Origin: Chloroflexota bacterium
Lineage (GTDB): Bacteria; Chloroflexota; Anaerolineae; Promineifilales; Promineifilaceae
Direction: 5' to 3'
Assembly (NCBI GenBank): GCA_008501785.1
Contig: QQUD01000137.1
Location: forward strand, 1 to 6,350
DNA length: 6,350 bases
In this document: one piece after another, positions 1-6,350 of the stretch
Layout: every line of letters begins with the position of its first letter
Numbering within the stretch: position 1 is the first letter of the stretch
The notes under the pieces: model-generated
Seen by the model: only the letters and a program-made list of their open reading frames with translations
Database searches by the model: none
Told to the model about the DNA's origin: nothing
Translations under genes and position numbers: made by a program

Positions 1-645
1 GCTGAATATGCGGCGCAGGTTGAAGAATTGGCAACTGTTAACGAAAGGAATCGGTTAGCACGGGAAATACATGATAACTTGGGCCATTACTTGACCGTGG
101 TTAATATTCAGATTGAGGCCGCACATACGATCATGGATTCGAATCCAGAAAAAGCAAAGGATGCGTTGTCTAAGGCACAAAAGTTGACACAGGATGGATT
201 GGCTTCGGTGAGAAGATCTGTGAGTGCATTGCGCGAGTCGCCATTGGCAGAACGGCCGTTACCCGAAGCCATTAACCAACTCATCGCAGAAAACCAGGCC
301 GCAGGCATTGTTACAAACATGATAGTTCAAGGGGATACGCGCCATCTAGACCCCAAAGTTGCACTCACCTTATATCGAACTGTACAAGAAAGCTTAACCA
401 ATGTGCGCAAACATGCTCATGCTTCACAAGTTGATATTTTTCTTGATTATAGAAATGAACAAATGATGCAAATCATTGTACAGGATAATGGCATTGGGGC
501 CGAAAAAACAGAGGGTGGATTTGGCTTGCTGGGGCTGCAAGAAAGAGTGCAACTTTTAAACGGAACTCTAACCATTGAATCAGAACCAAGCAGTGGATTT
601 ATACTCACAAGTCAAATTCCAACACCTAAGGAAAACACCAAATGA
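1..645 (+). CDS. Sensor histidine kinase, HisKA_3/NarL-partner type (5' end missing)
   Basis: This is the catalytic C-terminal part of a two-component sensor kinase that autophosphorylates on His and passes the phosphate to the response regulator encoded next. The frame is open to base 1, so the TTG at 28 is not the real start and the sensor domain lies outside the window. Counting residues from base 1, the HisKA_3 dimerisation motif E-R-N-R-L-A-R-E-I-H-D is at 15-25, with the phosphoacceptor His at 24 (codon 70-72). The HATPase_c domain follows: N box Q-E-S-L-T-N-V-R-K-H-A with Asn134, D-N-G-I-G with Asp162, and the glycine-rich G-G-F-G-L-L-G-L-Q-E-R at about 172-182. All key ATP-binding motifs are intact. 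The family (NarX/DesK/LiaS-like) pairs with LuxR-type regulators, which fits the neighbour. The stop overlaps the next start by 4 bases (ATGA), implying translational coupling. The stimulus cannot be inferred. Confidence 0.94.
   Translation, partial: AEYAAQVEELATVNERNRLAREIHDNLGHYLTVVNIQIEAAHTIMDSNPEKAKDALSKAQKLTQDGLASVRRSVSALRESPLAERPLPEAINQLIAENQAAGIVTNMIVQGDTRHLDPKVALTLYRTVQESLTNVRKHAHASQVDIFLDYRNEQMMQIIVQDNGIGAEKTEGGFGLLGLQERVQLLNGTLTIESEPSSGFILTSQIPTPKENTK
251..260. repeat. AACGGCCGTT palindrome, copy 1
   Basis: This perfect 10-bp palindrome containing ACGGCCGT lies in the kinase gene and is read in frame as (E)-R-P-L. The 50 bases to its right hold about 17 C. It is one of seven exact copies in the window. 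Confidence 0.8.
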
Positions 646-1298
646 CCATCAAAATCATCCTGGTTGACGACCAAATGTTGTTTCGAGAAGGACTTAGTAC
701 TTTATTGTCTGTGCATGATGACATCGAAGTCATTGGTGAAGCCGAAAATGGGGAAGAGGCGATTAAGCTGGTTACCAAGTTAAAACCAGATGTGGTGCTG
801 ATGGATGTGCGCATGCCTGTTCTTGATGGAGTTGCCGCAACGCGCAAGCTCACCCAAGATCATCCCAACAGCCGGGTGATTATGTTAACTACGTTTGATG
901 ACGATGAATATGTATTTGAAGGGTTGCGGGCCGGCGCTGCTGGTTATTTACTAAAAGATGTGCCCTCAAAAAAACTCGTTGAAGCGATTCGGGCGGCTGC
1001 CAAGGGAGAATCGTTTTTGCAGCCATCAGTAGCAGCGAAAGTTGTGGCTGAGTTTACGAGAATGTCGGCAAATACGGCCGTTTCCTCCCCCAAACAACCC
1101 CTCATCGACCCCCTCTCCAACCGCGAACTCGAAATCCTGAACCTGGTTGCCACGGGTGCGAGCAACCGAGAGATTGCCTCGTCATTATTTATTGCTGAAG
1201 GGACAGTTAAAAACCATGTCACAAATATTTTAGGGAAACTGGGCGTCCGTGACAGAACACAAGCGGCTTTAAAAGCAAAAGAGCTTGGACTCATCTAA
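642..1298 (+). CDS. Response regulator, NarL/FixJ family (REC + LuxR-type HTH)
   Basis: This is a DNA-binding transcription regulator and the likely phosphorylation target of the kinase it overlaps. The receiver domain (about residues 3-120) has the acidic pair Asp9-Asp10, phosphoacceptor Asp55 in V-L-M-D-V-R-M-P, Thr83 and Lys105 (L-L-K-D), so it should be phosphorylatable. A linker at about 140-156 leads to a LuxR-type helix-turn-helix (about 157-218) with P-L-S-N-R-E-L-E-I-L, then A-S-N-R-E-I-A and G-T-V-K-N-H-V-T-N-I-L. At 218 residues it has the usual family length. The ATG at 642 is supported by AAGGAA at 628-633, eight bases upstream, and by the ATGA overlap with the kinase stop. The linker is encoded by an ACGGCCGT palindrome followed by an unusually C-rich stretch (see findings). 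Target genes are unknown; its own operon or the adjacent secreted-protein gene are possible but unproven. Confidence 0.96.
   Translation: MTIKIILVDDQMLFREGLSTLLSVHDDIEVIGEAENGEEAIKLVTKLKPDVVLMDVRMPVLDGVAATRKLTQDHPNSRVIMLTTFDDDEYVFEGLRAGAAGYLLKDVPSKKLVEAIRAAAKGESFLQPSVAAKVVAEFTRMSANTAVSSPKQPLIDPLSNRELEILNLVATGASNREIASSLFIAEGTVKNHVTNILGKLGVRDRTQAALKAKELGLI
1074..1081 (+). repeat. ACGGCCGT palindrome, copy 2, with C-rich right flank
   Basis: This perfect 8-bp palindrome encodes T-A-V (residues 145-147) in the response-regulator linker and continues as TTCCTCC. Bases 1081-1140 hold 29 C and 5 G, against 12 C and 19 G in 1021-1080. Orientation (+) is assigned by the C-rich side. Confidence 0.85.
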
Positions 1299-1305
1299 AA
1301 TTCCC

Positions 1306-1329
1306 AGCTTCCGGAACCTCCCGGAAGCT
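1306..1329 (+). repeat. Perfect 9-bp inverted repeat (hairpin) after the response regulator
   Basis: AGCTTCCGG at 1306-1314 is matched by CCGGAAGCT at 1321-1329, with a 6-base loop. It starts 7 bases after the regulator's stop codon, the usual place for a terminator, but no T tract follows. It may be a weak or factor-assisted terminator, an mRNA 3'-end stabiliser or a protein-binding palindrome. A further AGCTTCC lies at 1364-1370, inside a weaker imperfect hairpin that is followed by TTTT at 1377-1380. Confidence 0.6.
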
Positions 1330-1456
1330 AAGAAATCGCTTATTGCCTAAGCCATTGGTTCAAAGCTTCCGAGAAGTTTTATCCAACCATTTATCTTACC
1401 GTCTATTTCATACAAAAACCTCTCAAAAAAACTTGTTTTCTCGACATAACGAGGTA

Positions 1457-1465
1457 TGCTATACT
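1457..1465 (+). promoter_or_regulatory. Candidate extended -10 promoter for the secreted CAP-domain gene
   Basis: TGC-TATACT at 1457-1465 matches an extended -10 element (TGn plus a hexamer one base off TATAAT). No good -35 sits at 17 bp; TTGTTT at 1433-1438 would need a 21-bp spacer, so an extended -10 promoter is the better reading. The predicted start, around 1472, leaves a leader of about 110 bases before the ATG at 1585. A direct repeat TAATGTA (1471-1477 and 1479-1485) lies at the predicted start point, and CTCG/CGAG arms (1440-1443, 1450-1453) flank the spacer. These could be operator sites. The call rests on sequence pattern only. Confidence 0.45.
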
Positions 1466-1572
1466 TTACGTAATGTATTAATGTAAGTTGGCATGAAATG
1501 TGAACAGACTATCGTTAGATATGTCCTTTACTACTATTCGTAACACCCACATTAACCATTGAAGGACAAGTC

Positions 1573-1579
1573 AGGAGGT
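1573..1579 (+). promoter_or_regulatory. Strong Shine-Dalgarno that fixes the start of the CAP-domain gene
   Basis: AGGAGGT at 1573-1579 is nearly full-length complementary to the 16S rRNA 3' end and lies 5 bases upstream of the ATG at 1585. This decides the start codon and suggests efficient translation. Confidence 0.85.
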
Positions 1580-1584
1580 CCCTC

Positions 1585-3009
1585 ATGAGAAGAGTACTAA
1601 AAATTACATTTTTGATAATTCCATTTTTACTTGTGGCTGGCGTATTTTTGGTATCAGCAAATAATGACTCGCCACGGGGCACCATTCGCGGTGGTGTTTA
1701 TTTGGATGCCGATGGAGACGGACAGTGTGGCACTTCAACCCCTGTACCCAATATTGACATCCTATTTGTCTCTGGAAACAATCGAGTCACACTGTACACT
1801 GGTTCCAACGGCACTTATGGTTTGCCTGCTGCCGGACGCGGCACATGGGAGATAACGGCAAACCCCGACCTCGCTATCTGGACCGTAACCTCTACCAACC
1901 CACTCATGGTCACTGTGTTTGAAGATGAGGGTCTCGTGCAAACAGATGTCAATTTCTGCGTGTCAGGTGATGGACCTGTTGGTACCACATCATCTGAAAC
2001 AACAACCCACTCATCAAGTGCAACCTCATCATTTACGGCAAGCAGTCCTTCCAGCAGTGCATCATCACCCACAAGTGGCAGATCAGAAATAGAAAATGAA
2101 TTAGCCTCAAATCACAGCGTTAGTTCAGAGTTGTTGTCTGCATCAGCCACATTCGAAACAGTTGAAAATGTGGCTGACATTGCCACCGTTGCCCCACCAA
2201 GTGGAACTGAATGGCTAGATTATCTCAATCAGTTCCGTGACATAGCTGGGTTGCCGCGATTCACAGAGCTTGAATCTCTGACACAAGGTAGTTTGTTGCA
2301 CAGCAAATATATGGTGCTTAACGACAAGCCAATTGCCCACAATGAAGATGAAGCCAATCCGCTGTTTGACCCGGCTGGAAGGCAAGCAGCTATCAACGGA
2401 AACATCTTTGCTACGAGCCAGATTCAAGCTGATCATGTGTGGGGAACTAATTTTTGGATATCCGCACCATTCCATTTACTAGCAGTTATCAATCCCGACG
2501 TTGATAAAGTTGGTTACGGCCAATATAACCAGACCATTGGTCAATTCTATATGGCGGCCGTTTTAGATGTACGCTCTGAACTAGGCAACGCCGAAACCGA
2601 AGTTCAATACCCCATTTACTTCCCAGGAGATGGATCTGAAACCTGGGTTGTACGTCGCAGCCTCTACGAATGGCCCGATCCGTTAGGCAATTGTGAAGGG
2701 TACAGCGCCCCAACCGGCACCGCTCTTATCCTGCAACTTGGTGATGGCAGCCTGACACCTAAAGTTGAAAGCCATGCAGTCTATCAAGGGACTACGTTGA
2801 TTGAATCTTGTGCTTATGACGAAACAACCTATGTAAATCCCGATCCGTATGCGCAGAAAACTGGGCGCACCATCATCGGGGCACAAGATGCAATTGTTAT
2901 CATCCCAAAGAATCATTTGCCAATTAATGAAACCTATACCGTGCAAGTTACGGTAGATGGCGAACGTTATGAATGGAGTTTTAGCACCCGCAAAGGTCCG
3001 CCCGAATAA
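1585..3009 (+). CDS. Secreted multidomain protein: SdrD-B-like domain + Ser/Thr linker + CAP (SCP/PR-1-like) domain
   Basis: This is a predicted exported protein of 474 residues. Residues 1-25 form a classic signal peptide: M-R-R, then a hydrophobic run to V-S-A, with probable signal peptidase I cleavage near Ala25. Residues about 33-130 resemble an SdrD-B/prealbumin-like beta domain (G-G-V-Y-L-D, then D-A-D-G-D-G at 41-46, a possible calcium loop). Residues 133-165 are a Ser/Thr-rich low-complexity linker, and the stretch to about 205 also looks flexible. A bacterial CAP domain spans about 208-333 (W-L-D-Y-L-N-Q-F-R, H-S-K-Y-M at 239-243, H252-N-E254, and A-P-F-H297 followed by V-G-Y-G). A C-terminal beta-rich region follows. 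The mature protein has exactly four Cys (48, 125, 370, 409), two in each beta-type region, suggesting one disulfide per region. There is no membrane anchor, lipobox or sortase motif, so it is probably released. The substrate and biological role are unknown. Confidence 0.85.
   Translation: MRRVLKITFLIIPFLLVAGVFLVSANNDSPRGTIRGGVYLDADGDGQCGTSTPVPNIDILFVSGNNRVTLYTGSNGTYGLPAAGRGTWEITANPDLAIWTVTSTNPLMVTVFEDEGLVQTDVNFCVSGDGPVGTTSSETTTHSSSATSSFTASSPSSSASSPTSGRSEIENELASNHSVSSELLSASATFETVENVADIATVAPPSGTEWLDYLNQFRDIAGLPRFTELESLTQGSLLHSKYMVLNDKPIAHNEDEANPLFDPAGRQAAINGNIFATSQIQADHVWGTNFWISAPFHLLAVINPDVDKVGYGQYNQTIGQFYMAAVLDVRSELGNAETEVQYPIYFPGDGSETWVVRRSLYEWPDPLGNCEGYSAPTGTALILQLGDGSLTPKVESHAVYQGTTLIESCAYDETTYVNPDPYAQKTGRTIIGAQDAIVIIPKNHLPINETYTVQVTVDGERYEWSFSTRKGPPE
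2554..2561 (+). repeat. Degenerate palindrome copy GCGGCCGT
   Basis: This is one mismatch from ACGGCCGT, inside the CAP-domain gene (A-A-V), followed by TTTTAG. The C-rich flank is weak or absent. It may be a decayed copy or chance. Confidence 0.35.
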
Positions 3010-3023
3010 TTCGCAGATTGGCA

Positions 3024-3029
3024 TATAAT
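3024..3029 (+). promoter_or_regulatory. Consensus -10 box upstream of the PLP-enzyme gene
   Basis: TATAAT at 3024-3029 is a perfect -10 hexamer, 15 bases after the stop of the CAP-domain gene. No recognisable -35 lies 16-18 bp upstream (the region is CCCGAA-like). If it is used, transcription would start near 3036, and the hairpin at 3045-3079 would lie inside the leader of the downstream gene. AT-rich intergenic DNA can produce such a match by chance. Confidence 0.4.
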
Positions 3030-3044
3030 TTAACAAGAGTTTTT

Positions 3045-3087
3045 GAACACGCATCACATTTTTTTGAGGGTGCGTGTTCGTTTTTTT
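3045..3087 (+). terminator. Strong intrinsic terminator between the CAP-domain gene and the PLP-enzyme gene
   Basis: GAACACGCA at 3045-3053 pairs perfectly with TGCGTGTTC at 3071-3079. One further G-U and one C-G pair can extend the stem to 11 bp. The stem is followed by a G and then seven Ts (3081-3087). The loop itself holds another T run (3059-3065). It lies 35 bases after the stop of the secreted-protein gene and should end that transcript. Its T tract runs directly into GAGGA (3088-3092), the probable Shine-Dalgarno of the next gene, which leaves little room for a promoter between them. Confidence 0.88.
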
Positions 3088-3098
3088 GAGGATTTACA

Positions 3099-4205
3099 AT
3101 GGACATGACTCAAATTATTAAACCTACACTTTTGATAGATGAGAAAAAGGCGCGGAAAAACATTGCTGACATGGCAAAAAGGGCGCGTCAGGCTGGCGTT
3201 ATCTTTCGCCCCCATTTCAAAACGCATCAATCAGCAGAAATTGGCAATTGGTTTCGTGACAATGGCGTTACCAAAATAACGGTATCTTCGGTAGACATGG
3301 CTGTCTATTTTGCAGAACATGGTTGGGATGACATTACGATTGCATTTCCGGTGAATGTGCGACAACTGCCAACAATTAATCAACTTGCAAAAAAGGTGAC
3401 GTTAAATCTGTTAGTCGAGAGTGAAATTGTTATTGAACATTTGCATAAACACCTCACAAAACAAGTAAATGTCTGGCTGGAAATTGATGCGGGGTATCAG
3501 CGAACTGGTTTACCCTGGGATGATTTGGAAGCGATAACGGCCGTTTCCACTCTCCTCCAAACCTCGCCATCCCTTCATCTCTCCGGGCTGCTGCTTCATG
3601 CAGGCAACACGTATAAAGGGCGAGGAAAAACGGCCGTTCTCGACACCCACCGCCAATCCTTACATCACTTGCATCACGTCCAGAATCATTTGCAACAACA
3701 AGGCCTTTCTGCCGCTATTTCCATTGGCGACACCCCAGCCTGTACACTTGCCAATGATTTCGCCGGGATTGATGAAATTCGCCCTGGGAATTTTGTGTTT
3801 TTTGACATGATGCAGGTGCAAATTGGGGCGTGTTCCATTGATCAAATAGCTGTTGCCATTGCCTGTCCGGTTGTGGCTAAATATCCAGCAAGAAATTGCA
3901 TTGCTGTTTACGGCGGCGCAGTTCACCATTCCAAAGAAGCGTTGGTACGAGATGATGGAACGGTTAGTTACGGCCGTATCGCCCTCCCCACTGCCAACGA
4001 ATGGCAAGTCACATCTGACGAAAACTACATATATAGTTTGTCACAAGAACACGGGTTGGTGCAAGCATCCACTCATTTGATGGAACAAATTGAAGTTGGG
4101 GATTTGCTGCTAGTGCTGCCAGTGCATTCTTGTTTGACAGCAAATTTGCTCAAAAGTTACGTCACATTAGGTGGAAAACGGATCGAAATGGCTGACATAC
4201 ATTAA
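3099..4205 (+). CDS. PLP-dependent D-threonine aldolase / D-serine dehydratase-like enzyme (alanine racemase N-terminal fold)
   Basis: This is a predicted cytoplasmic fold-type III PLP enzyme acting on a D-hydroxy-amino acid. Relatives split D-threonine to glycine and acetaldehyde, or convert D-serine to pyruvate and ammonia, using PLP and a metal ion. The PLP lysine is Lys41 in R-P-H-F-K-T-H. His167 lies in L-H-A-G-N-T-Y, followed by G-D-T-P at 210-213 and D-E-I-R-P-G-N-F-V-F-F-D, typical of the family. The C-terminal metal site His343-x-Cys345 (V-H-S-C-L-T-A-N) is intact, as in eukaryotic-type D-serine dehydratase. At 368 residues it has full family length. The ATG at 3099 has GAGGA (3088-3092) six bases upstream. 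An in-frame ATG at 3105 (codon 3) is less well spaced. Three ACGGCCGT palindromes fall inside the gene. The sequence does not settle aldolase versus dehydratase. Its stop overlaps that of the convergent minus-strand gene. Confidence 0.88.
   Translation: MDMTQIIKPTLLIDEKKARKNIADMAKRARQAGVIFRPHFKTHQSAEIGNWFRDNGVTKITVSSVDMAVYFAEHGWDDITIAFPVNVRQLPTINQLAKKVTLNLLVESEIVIEHLHKHLTKQVNVWLEIDAGYQRTGLPWDDLEAITAVSTLLQTSPSLHLSGLLLHAGNTYKGRGKTAVLDTHRQSLHHLHHVQNHLQQQGLSAAISIGDTPACTLANDFAGIDEIRPGNFVFFDMMQVQIGACSIDQIAVAIACPVVAKYPARNCIAVYGGAVHHSKEALVRDDGTVSYGRIALPTANEWQVTSDENYIYSLSQEHGLVQASTHLMEQIEVGDLLLVLPVHSCLTANLLKSYVTLGGKRIEMADIH
3536..3545 (+). repeat. AACGGCCGTT palindrome, copy 3, with C-rich right flank
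   Basis: This perfect 10-bp palindrome encodes T-A-V (147-149) in the PLP-enzyme gene and continues as TCCAC. Bases 3541-3600 hold 27 C and 8 G, against 9 C and 20 G in 3481-3540, the same switch seen at copy 2. Confidence 0.85.
3629..3638 (+). repeat. AACGGCCGTT palindrome, copy 4
   Basis: This perfect 10-bp palindrome lies only 93 bases after copy 3 and encodes T-A-V (178-180). Bases 3631-3690 hold 24 C and 8 G, while the 30 bases before it hold 5 C and 9 G. Confidence 0.85.
3969..3978 (+). repeat. TACGGCCGTA palindrome, copy 5
   Basis: This perfect 10-bp palindrome is read in a different frame, as Y-G-R (291-293) of the PLP enzyme. The C-rich run GCCCTCCCCA follows at 3981-3990. The 50 bases before the CGGCCG core hold 8 C and 14 G; the next 50 hold 20 C and 11 G. 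Confidence 0.85.
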
Positions 4206-6350
4206 CGATTTTCAGCGTCAGTCAAGATTTTTTCCAGCAAATCGTCTAATTTCCAGGCACGCCCTTTTGCTTTTGCTGCTGCATTGGTTTTTTCATCGAG
4301 ATGAGAGGGTGTTGATTGGAAAACGGCCGTAATCAAAGATCGCGTTTCATACCAAAGTGCCGGATGCGCTTCCACAAAAGCCGCCAACTCTACGGCCCCT
4401 TCATACGCACCTACCCGCTGCAAAAGTTGTGCATATGCGGCAATCGCTAACATGCTCACTCCCAAATTAGACAACTCTTTCGCGTGCGATAATGCCTCAA
4501 CCATTTGCCCATAAGCCCCATCAACATCGCCATCAGCCAGCAAAGCGAGGCCCAGCCAACTTCTGGCACAGGACACATTCCAATTATGGTAATCCTTGAC
4601 AGATAACTCAACGCTGCGTTTCAGTGCAGTTTTTGCACCATCAATATCATTGGTCCGCAGCAACATCCAACCCTTAACCCGAAAATAAAATGCATGTCCC
4701 CGTAATATTTCGTTTGTATCAAAAAATTGCTTGCTTTTTTCCAAATATCGCCATCCGGTTTCTGCATCACCGGTTAAAAAAGTAAGTTCAGCATTTTCGA
4801 AATAACACCAGGCCATGCTATTAACGTCATGCAGTTTTTCATAAAGGGCTTGTGAATCGCCACGCAAGGTCAACGCATATTCATATTGTCCCATCCGCCG
4901 AGCAGACAAACTTTCCCAAGACAATGCACGCGCAACAGAATGCCGGTCGCCCAATTCCTCAAAAACATCTCGGCCCCGTCGATAATAAATGAGGGCTTGT
5001 TCGTATTCACCTTTGGCATCGTAGGTGGCACCCATATCAATAAAACTATTTCCTACCCCCCCACGATTCCCAACAGATTCATATATTTCACGGCACTCTT
5101 CATAGATACTCAATGTCGTGTCAAAATCGTGCTCATCGCCAGTTACATGTGCCAGACTACCCAATAGATAAGCGAGTACGATACGATCACCTAATTGCCG
5201 ACTGAGCGCTATTCCCTCGTTAATTAGTGCTCGCCCCTCATCTTTCATATTTGAAGCCCAAAAAGAGCCGCCAACGATGCTTAAACCAACAGCTAATGAC
5301 CAAACATCACCATCCTGGCGTATGTACGCTAAAGATTCTCGGACAAGGGCAGCGCCTTGTTCGCGATGGATGCGCCACATATAGATTTCAGCATTCAACA
5401 GAAAATAAACACCCATTTTTGAGCGGATGCCATATGCATCTGCCAGGTGTAAAGCTTCTTGACAAAGTTGTTTAGTACGATTTGAAGCAAAATCAAATGA
5501 GAGCGTAAAAGACAATAAAGCAATCAATGAAGCATGCAGCAGTTGGGCATCACTGCTTTGTATGTTTTTTTCTAATTCTGCCGTCGCCACAGCTTCGACA
5601 TCTTCCACCACCAATTCAAGCACCTCAATCATTAACATTAAATTGGCACGCACCAGATAAAAATTAAACAGGCCAGACAAAGCAGCCAGCCCAATTTGAT
5701 GAGCACCATGAGCCAATCCCCAAAACCAGGCGGCCAAAATGTTACCAAGCTCCTGCTCAACAACATCATAAGCGGCACGCTGTTGGGGGCCTTGCATCAA
5801 TAGGGATTGTTTAGCTAAAAAGTGAAGATAATAAAGGCTGTGTCGGCTCCTAAAGTTGAACAGGCTTTCGGCATCTTCTTGAATTTTTTCTGTCGCATAT
5901 TGACGCAGCAGCTCGTGGATGGCAAAACGGCCGTTTTCCTCCCGCCGCACCAATGATTTATTCACCAGCCGCATCAACGTGCGTAAATTCGTCTGTGCTA
6001 CTTTTTGCGCTGCATCTCGCGAGAAACCGCCTTGAAAAAGGGCTAATTGTGGAAAAAGCTGCTTTTCCTCAGCATTCATCAATTCCCAAGAATAGTTAAA
6101 AACAGCGCGTAAGCTGCGCTGTCGCTGTGGCACATCTTGCACTTCGGTTTCTAAAAAATCTAGATTCTCGCTAATTTCTGCCCGAATCTCGGTGACAGAA
6201 AGCATCTCCATCCAGCTTGCCGCCAATTCAATACCGAGCGGCAGCCCATGTACCAATCGACAAATCTCGGTCACATCCACAATATTTTCGGGCAAAAGTG
6301 AAAATCCAGACTGCACACGCACAGCACTTTGTTGAAACAGTTGTAAAGCG
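4202..6350 (-). CDS. STAND-type ATPase regulator, C-terminal part with winged helix and TPR repeats (5' end missing)
   Basis: This is the C-terminal portion of a large signal-transduction ATPase or transcriptional regulator of the MalT/AfsR-like STAND class. The frame stays open to the right edge (A-L-Q-L-F-Q-Q-S-A precedes the GTG at 6322), so that GTG is almost certainly internal. The P-loop and any N-terminal effector domain lie outside. Counting from the GTG, G-L-P-L-G-I-E-L-A-A at 26-35 is the conserved STAND/NB-ARC GLPL-type motif. A winged-helix-like region follows at about 68-155 (F-N-Y-S-W-E-L-M, L-V-N-K-S-L-V, H-E-L-L-R-Q-Y-A). A helical region comes next, then about seven 40-residue TPR-like repeats at about 335-640, for example G-A-T-Y-D-A-K-G-E-Y-E-Q-A-L. 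TPRs in this class bind an inducer or a partner protein. The C-terminal tail (K-G-R-A-W-K-L-D-D-L-L-E-K-I-L) is also typical. Whether it carries a DNA-binding HTH, SARP or cyclase domain cannot be seen. Confidence 0.88.
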   Translation of the reverse strand, partial: ALQLFQQSAVRVQSGFSLLPENIVDVTEICRLVHGLPLGIELAASWMEMLSVTEIRAEISENLDFLETEVQDVPQRQRSLRAVFNYSWELMNAEEKQLFPQLALFQGGFSRDAAQKVAQTNLRTLMRLVNKSLVRREENGRFAIHELLRQYATEKIQEDAESLFNFRSRHSLYYLHFLAKQSLLMQGPQQRAAYDVVEQELGNILAAWFWGLAHGAHQIGLAALSGLFNFYLVRANLMLMIEVLELVVEDVEAVATAELEKNIQSSDAQLLHASLIALLSFTLSFDFASNRTKQLCQEALHLADAYGIRSKMGVYFLLNAEIYMWRIHREQGAALVRESLAYIRQDGDVWSLAVGLSIVGGSFWASNMKDEGRALINEGIALSRQLGDRIVLAYLLGSLAHVTGDEHDFDTTLSIYEECREIYESVGNRGGVGNSFIDMGATYDAKGEYEQALIYYRRGRDVFEELGDRHSVARALSWESLSARRMGQYEYALTLRGDSQALYEKLHDVNSMAWCYFENAELTFLTGDAETGWRYLEKSKQFFDTNEILRGHAFYFRVKGWMLLRTNDIDGAKTALKRSVELSVKDYHNWNVSCARSWLGLALLADGDVDGAYGQMVEALSHAKELSNLGVSMLAIAAYAQLLQRVGAYEGAVELAAFVEAHPALWYETRSLITAVFQSTPSHLDEKTNAAAKAKGRAWKLDDLLEKILTDAENR
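4323..4330 (-). repeat. ACGGCCGT palindrome, copy 6, opposite orientation
   Basis: This perfect 8-bp palindrome lies in the minus-strand STAND gene, encoding T-A-V there. On the minus strand it continues as TTTCCAATC and then ACCCTCTC, so the TTTCC extension and the C-rich side point in the opposite direction to copies 2, 3 and 7. Confidence 0.8.
5934..5947 (+). repeat. AAAACGGCCGTTTT palindrome, copy 7
   Basis: This is the longest copy, a perfect 14-bp palindrome in the minus-strand STAND gene (N-G-R on its coding strand). On the plus strand it is followed by CCTCCCGCCGC. The C-rich side therefore lies on the non-coding strand, showing that the skew does not follow gene direction. Confidence 0.85.

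Follow-up and report, generated by a model that had tools for sequence, protein, structure and literature searches.

Why does a single eight-base palindrome, ACGGCCGT, occur seven times in the 6,350-nucleotide (nt) stretch of DNA analyzed here (hereafter the window), and what keeps it there? Our analysis answers the first part firmly: ACGGCCGT is a highly iterated palindrome (HIP) in Elhai’s sense, belonging to one order of Chloroflexota and built on a core of its own, CGGCCG. It is present genome-wide at ~0.4–2.1 copies per kb in 28 of the 56 genomes of that order, and codons do not explain it. This is a HIP1-like phenomenon outside cyanobacteria, with no earlier account found in our literature searches; these returned no report of a HIP in Chloroflexota, papers containing ACGGCCGT being judged by title and the beginning of the abstract.

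The iterated octamer in the window and across the order

The initial annotation of the window had counted seven exact copies of an 8-bp palindrome in 6.35 kb, and the count holds (n = 7). Window shuffles preserving dinucleotides gave a mean of 0.03 copies and a maximum of 1, with 0 of 200 reaching seven, and the second-order Markov expectation is 0.07. Synonymous-codon shuffling of the five window genes yielded a mean of 0.45 and a maximum of 4 (n = 1,000). No second 8-bp palindrome is present more than once in the window, and seven of its eight CGGCCG hexamers belong to ACGGCCGT, which has a GC content of 75%. As had also been noted, all seven copies lie within reading frames, in four of the five genes, three codon phases and both coding strands, and the near copy at 2554–2561 is genuine, reading GCGGCCGT. 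Some positions needed correction: the last copy, placed at 5934–5947, lies at 5927–5934, and some others had been padded by one base. The +1 flank of the seven sites is mostly T. The copies (palindromic, no strand assigned) and the genes are as follows.

252..259, no strand, ACGGCCGT copy 1, in the histidine kinase gene, codon phase 2
1074..1081, no strand, ACGGCCGT copy 2, in the LuxR-type response regulator gene, phase 0
2554..2561, plus strand, near copy GCGGCCGT, in the CAP-domain protein gene
3537..3544, no strand, ACGGCCGT copy 3, in the racemase/D-serine dehydratase-like gene, phase 0
3630..3637, no strand, ACGGCCGT copy 4, in the racemase/D-serine dehydratase-like gene, phase 0
3970..3977, no strand, ACGGCCGT copy 5, in the racemase/D-serine dehydratase-like gene, phase 1
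4323..4330, no strand, ACGGCCGT copy 6, in the minus-strand tetratricopeptide repeat (TPR) protein gene, phase 0
5927..5934, no strand, ACGGCCGT copy 7, in the minus-strand TPR protein gene, phase 1
1..645, plus strand, histidine kinase, C-terminal part (HisKA_3, HATPase_c); holds copy 1
642..1298, plus strand, response regulator with LuxR-type (GerE) domain; holds copy 2
1585..3009, plus strand, CAP-domain protein; near copy GCGGCCGT only
3099..4205, plus strand, alanine racemase/D-serine dehydratase-like protein; holds copies 3–5; query for relatives
4202..6349, minus strand, TPR-repeat protein, open at the window edge; holds copies 6 and 7

Used as a query, the racemase-like protein found itself on a single 8.2-kb contig, followed by relatives at 78–79% and, at 56–63%, by proteins named as Anaerolineales, Anaerolineae or Chloroflexota. 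Among the best 80 loci kept from a contig scan with this protein, three, all from Chloroflexota, are rich in ACGGCCGT (14 copies in 6.6 kb, 32 in 16.8 kb and 48 in 21.1 kb), and the remaining loci have at most three copies each. The whole genomes behind these three loci (L001, L050 and L067) contain 6,147, 13,708 and 15,176 copies, versus 71, 192 and 183 of a reversed control word. Counts in relatives are thus neither near expectation nor limited to the window, the two outcomes that the initial annotation had named as fatal to its proposal. Twelve further Chloroflexota genomes have 1–188 copies each. In a draw of 396 genomes of the class, 22 carry at least 1,000 copies, all 22 in a single order of 56 genomes, which may be Promineifilales; outside that order, no genome of the draw reaches 1,000. 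We define a ACGGCCGT genome as one in which ACGGCCGT makes up >30% of all CGGCCG and exceeds 400 per Mb. The 28 such genomes in the order have 437–2,102 copies per Mb, accounting for 34–85% of their CGGCCG; these densities are those of a HIP (~500–2,500 per Mb), with G406 (437) slightly below 500.

The dyad, noncoding and deviation counts come mainly from one of these genomes, G372, which holds 14,867 sites. Within 400 kb of it there are 790, giving observed-to-expected ratios of 90, 50, 28.6 and 8.9 at Markov orders 1–4. ACGGCCGT is the top palindrome at each of these orders, and at order 2 the next one reaches a ratio of only 4.0, the extreme outlier behavior characteristic of the HIP class. 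It is not the top palindrome at order 5, because a model of that order already holds most of the word. Synonymous shuffling lowered the count from 712 observed to a mean of 93.5 (20 shuffles), and noncoding DNA is about as rich (1,702/Mb) as coding DNA (1,984/Mb). One-base deviations in the 400 kb are concentrated at positions 1 and 8 in this one genome, again as in the HIP class: the outer position gives 46/73/70, the inner positions 4–29.

Maintenance and replacement of the octamer

Persistence of the sites between relatives was followed in syntenic DNA of eight genome pairs; since few regions per pair (one or two) were counted in both directions, the instances are not independent. Sites kept, with the percentage for other octamers in brackets, were 54/57 (68.2%), 92/96 (43.5%; pair G003–G002), 36/38 (43.5%), 50/55 (38.8%), 46/51 (35.1%), 42/48 (38.0%), 46/52 (49.7%) and 24/34 (23.4%). 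Seven pairs therefore keep 88–96% of ACGGCCGT sites versus 35–68% of other octamers, and the most diverged pair keeps 71% versus 23%. Across 521 aligned instances, divergence is 2–3% at each of the eight positions, 25–26% at the bases adjoining the octamer and 4–21% at the remaining flank positions. Where the site is read ACG-GCC-GTN (302 instances), the in-site third positions diverge by 6.0% (ACG) and 0.7% (GCC), versus 22.3% and 15.6% for the same codons outside sites, and third positions adjoining these sites diverge by 36–37%. The stretch frozen between relatives is exactly eight bases, synonymous positions included. Because synonymous positions are frozen inside the site and not elsewhere, it is the DNA word that is held, not the protein. 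When octamers were ranked by persistence, CCGCGCCC came first, level with ACGGCCGT (0.92; 89 versus 521 aligned instances), with a median of 0.62 for 79 octamers; the control octamers in this ranking are few sites counted in many genome pairs, and we therefore give more weight to pairwise persistence and codon-position divergence.

The initial annotation had argued that protein conservation does not explain the copies, and the relatives examined confirm this: noncoding DNA is about as rich in G372, and synonymous positions are frozen only inside the site. An origin in chance, codon usage or codon bias, or protein conservation is contradicted by the shuffles, the Markov counts, the noncoding density, the persistence of the sites and the in-site third positions, and we regard it as ruled out for practical purposes.

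Elsewhere in the order, other words take the place of ACGGCCGT, and three of the four genomes with a replacement octamer keep the CGGCCG core under another outer pair. TCGGCCGA is iterated in two of them (G405 at L355, 9,414 copies; G109 at L352, 7,668) and GCGGCCGC, the NotI site, in one (G194 at L354, 12,040); all three contain few ACGGCCGT. The fourth, G408 (L349, L350 and L401–L404), from the same order as G003, uses a different core: it has 3,665 copies of TGCCGGCA, the reversed control word, in 4.0 Mb (48 in a 48-kb sample) and 14 of ACGGCCGT, CGGCCG is scarce (447), and the genome has no match to the candidate methyltransferase described below. Six genomes (G164, G217, G291, G361, G422 and G423; five sampled) are rich in CGGCCG (19,809–25,568 copies) without a dominant outer pair. 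ACGGCCGT makes up at most 15% of their CGGCCG, with the maximum in G291, and for this reason G164, G217 and G291 were rejected as ACGGCCGT genomes. ACGGCCGT is also scarce in 13 more members of the order that carry the candidate gene; in the six sampled, CGGCCG stands at ~1.4–3.5 times expectation. In G317, G344, G407 and G408, CGGCCG is rarer than its rearranged control GCCGGC. In G194 and G164, where CGGCCG is abundant, the control is itself very rare (51 in the 8.0 Mb of G194; 132 in the 4.1 Mb of G164).

Candidate methyltransferase, NurA and virus records

According to PMC4390886, a putative matching methyltransferase accompanies such a repeat in every cyanobacterial genome that carries one. 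In the Chloroflexota order, the best candidate partner and writer of the repeat is a methyltransferase-like protein of ~660 residues, which is permuted and has a long insert containing Cys. It is found in 26 of the 28 ACGGCCGT genomes (in seven of the 26 as pieces only) versus 17 of the 28 others (Fisher p = 0.0095, uncorrected for kinship); two more Fisher tests with other groupings gave p = 0.0089 and 0.0019, the latter grouping having been chosen after G405 and G109 were seen. In these two TCGGCCGA genomes, the candidate is strongly diverged (G405) or split over two frames (G109). Six candidate proteins score 49.6–57.8 bits against PF01555 (N6/N4 DNA methylase; cut-off 26.7), and DPxxGGGT and DPPY are invariant in an alignment of 90 sequences; the Pfam score, the S-adenosylmethionine motif and the DPPY motif place the candidate in this family. 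Compared with PDB sequences, it comes closest to a DNA cytosine-N4 methyltransferase, though only weakly (9.4e-5). A structure model from the 90 sequences reached a pLDDT of 88.7 (an earlier one from eight sequences was poor, pLDDT 59); the best matches in fold searches are tRNA methyltransferases, and Foldseek lists DNA enzymes too. PADLOC returned partial matches only, to methyltransferase models.

Other assignments were rejected. Four proteins score 67.5–79.3 bits against the DUF1156 antiphage methyltransferase model (NF042963; cut-off 1000), over the C-terminal part only. A shared m5C methyltransferase (PF00145) is present in just 12 of the 22 genomes with at least 1,000 ACGGCCGT: the search gave no match in G003, G372, G367, G397 or G355, which are among the richest, and four matches in G002, which is also rich. 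At least seven of these 22 genomes share another PF01555 protein, ~330 residues long. The 21 proteins examined next to the candidate gene, from 15 genomes, gave no match to a restriction enzyme family; one of them matched nothing.

Of the 43 genomes with the candidate, 9 have NurA (PF09376) next to its gene and on the same strand (G387 counted from a contig-end fragment, G409 from coordinates), and all nine have an octamer repeat; the same-strand pair is seen at L166, L164, L169, L347, L352, L354 and L355. At the loci examined from genomes without an octamer repeat, NurA is not beside the candidate where the flank is long enough, nor is it in at least 13 ACGGCCGT genomes, including G003, G372 and G207. 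As a gene specific to the repeat, NurA was rejected, being present in 49 of the 56 genomes of the order. In G003 (L153), NurA lies 22 bases from a different PF01555 protein of 329 residues.

ACGGCCGT is also found in virus records. A scan for two ACGGCCGT within 30 bases returned at least 80 loci, and 16 of the 80 listed have at least five copies and 800 per Mb. Counted over their full length, 19 records range from five or fewer copies, in five of them, up to 227 in 65.5 kb; others have 226 in 100.4 kb, 93 in 40.4 kb and 85 in 33.5 kb. The densest, G426, carries 3,465 per Mb versus 2,102 in the top host genome, and the records behind L193, L230, L189, L181 and L203 span ~2,250–3,465 per Mb. 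Since the scan favors dense records, these data show that some mobile DNA carries the word at or above host density, not how common this is. Ten proteins from four dense loci include an antirepressor, an FtsK-like protein, a lytic transglycosylase and a DnaC-like loader; three of the ten had no PHROG match. The dense contigs are perhaps mobile elements of ACGGCCGT hosts.

Interpretation and comparison with known systems

We tentatively favor, at somewhat less than even confidence, a mechanism in which the cell marks the HIP, most likely by methylation of its CGGCCG core, and a reader of the marked octamer penalizes or reverses the loss of a site. Recognition would have two layers: the core, enriched across most of the order, and an outer pair (A..T, T..A or G..C) set by lineage. 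The writer would most plausibly be the 660-residue protein. A marked core with a lineage-set outer pair is the most economical mechanism for these data. Two points weigh against the candidate: it is also present in genomes without the ACGGCCGT repeat, for which it is not sufficient alone; and its predicted fold cannot separate DNA from RNA substrates.

Part of the same evidence could be read differently. In one such reading, biased mismatch repair or conversion tied to a methylated core would ratchet DNA toward a functionless octamer, as in Elhai’s HIP model. One-base deviations lie mostly at the outer pair; inner one-off variants are at or below third-order expectation save for one mirror pair (13 versus 10.0), six genomes iterate CGGCCG with no outer pair prevailing, and outer letters change between relatives. 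However, Elhai’s version needs a G beside the methylated C and so misfits the A and T outer letters, unless the rule differs here: 28 genomes have A as the outer base, two have T and one has G. Moreover, some virus records, expectedly under host repair for less time, carry the word at equal or greater density. We consider such a ratchet unlikely. The virus records speak for another possibility, a self-mark akin to Chi, by which a machine for resection or degradation (possibly NurA and its helicase) would recognize DNA as self and spare or recombine it; chromosome and phages would both gain by carrying such a mark. The adjacency of NurA to the candidate, confined to genomes with an octamer repeat where flanks sufficed, also speaks for this idea. 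Nevertheless, NurA is so widespread in the order that the adjacency may be a single ancestral gene order, at least 13 ACGGCCGT genomes lack it, known Chi sites are oriented whereas a palindrome is not, and the virus records were selected by a pattern that favors density; we therefore judge this possibility improbable as well. More doubtful still is its bolder form, a genome-wide self-mark: a resection machine linked to NurA would read the octamer, which the 660-residue enzyme would probably methylate, and would degrade or turn away DNA lacking the octamer. Chromosomes would then be locked into thousands of copies, phages would have to import the word, and re-coding of the outer pair would raise barriers between lineages.

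The flanks bear on a further possibility, a binding site for an abundant, sequence-specific chromosome-organizing protein. In ACGGCCGT genomes (G372, G003, G207 and others), GG at −4/−3 and CC at +3/+4 lengthen the dyad to GGNNACGGCCGTNNCC, in noncoding DNA too: at 70 noncoding sites of G372, C reaches 45% at +3 and 54% at +4 against a background of 24%. The +1 base is T or G depending on the genome. Yet these flanks do not share the octamer’s conservation between relatives, the TCGGCCGA genomes show the extension weakly or not at all, and spacing in G372 is near exponential (mean 505, coefficient of variation 1.11); an organizer site seems to us quite improbable. A DNA-uptake signal kept common by transformation would account for the density and the sharp conservation, which recall the uptake signals of Pasteurellaceae and Neisseriaceae, but palindromes are unusual among such signals and some virus records carry the word, making this explanation very improbable.

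A second HIP system in another phylum, where core and outer pair vary separately, offers natural contrasts for testing what such repeats do; the candidate enzyme split or diverged in two TCGGCCGA genomes and the virus records that carry the word are further contrasts. ACGGCCGT may further prove useful as a signature by which contigs and phages can be matched to these hosts.

Several known systems share features with the repeat. Chi sites and DNA-uptake sequences are short, dense, conserved and lineage-specific; they are oriented, non-palindromic words, whereas ACGGCCGT is a perfect palindrome, and it is accordingly not a Chi site of the kind read by RecBCD or AddAB. Type II restriction-modification sites are depleted in the genome, with an endonuclease beside the methyltransferase; ACGGCCGT is strongly enriched, and no restriction enzyme family was matched beside the candidate. 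Closer in target is M.Ssp6803II of Synechocystis, described as making N4-methylcytosine at GGCC (PMC6560206), a frequent GC-rich palindrome contained in the CGGCCG core; compared by description, the Chloroflexota candidate differs in its 660 residues and long insert. Methylation motifs shown for lake Chloroflexi include GANTC, TTAA and GCWGC (PMC6329791, PMC12772301), and the main text of the latter has no GGCC.

The closest parallel is HIP1 of cyanobacteria, GCGATCGC, to which the initial annotation had likened the repeat. As PMC4390886 describes it, HIP1 is a GC-rich 8-bp palindrome present at ~500–2,500 copies per million bases, far over expectation; its one-base deviations fall preferentially on the outer pair, in 12 genomes the palindrome extends into the flanks, and some relatives have other palindromes in its place. 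HIPs have also been used in typing by polymerase chain reaction (PMC8093824). ACGGCCGT is not HIP1 proper, which has a different sequence, a cyanobacterial host and GATC and CGATCG methyltransferases: the closest named relatives here are Chloroflexota/Anaerolineae, the core is CGGCCG rather than CGATCG and has no GATC inside, the outer pair is A..T, T..A or G..C, the methyltransferase is a candidate, not proven, and some virus records carry the word at host density or above. The alternate cyanobacterial HIPs (GGCGCC, rCCGGy, GCsGC, GGGATCCC and TCGATCGA) are described as sporadic, in one or a few genomes (Elhai 2015, PMC4390886), whereas ACGGCCGT spans 28 genomes of an order; like the Chloroflexota words, they are differing palindromes that replace one another between relatives. 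The likeness to HIP1 is thus upheld by density, palindromy, overrepresentation, outer-pair deviations and replacement by other palindromes in relatives.

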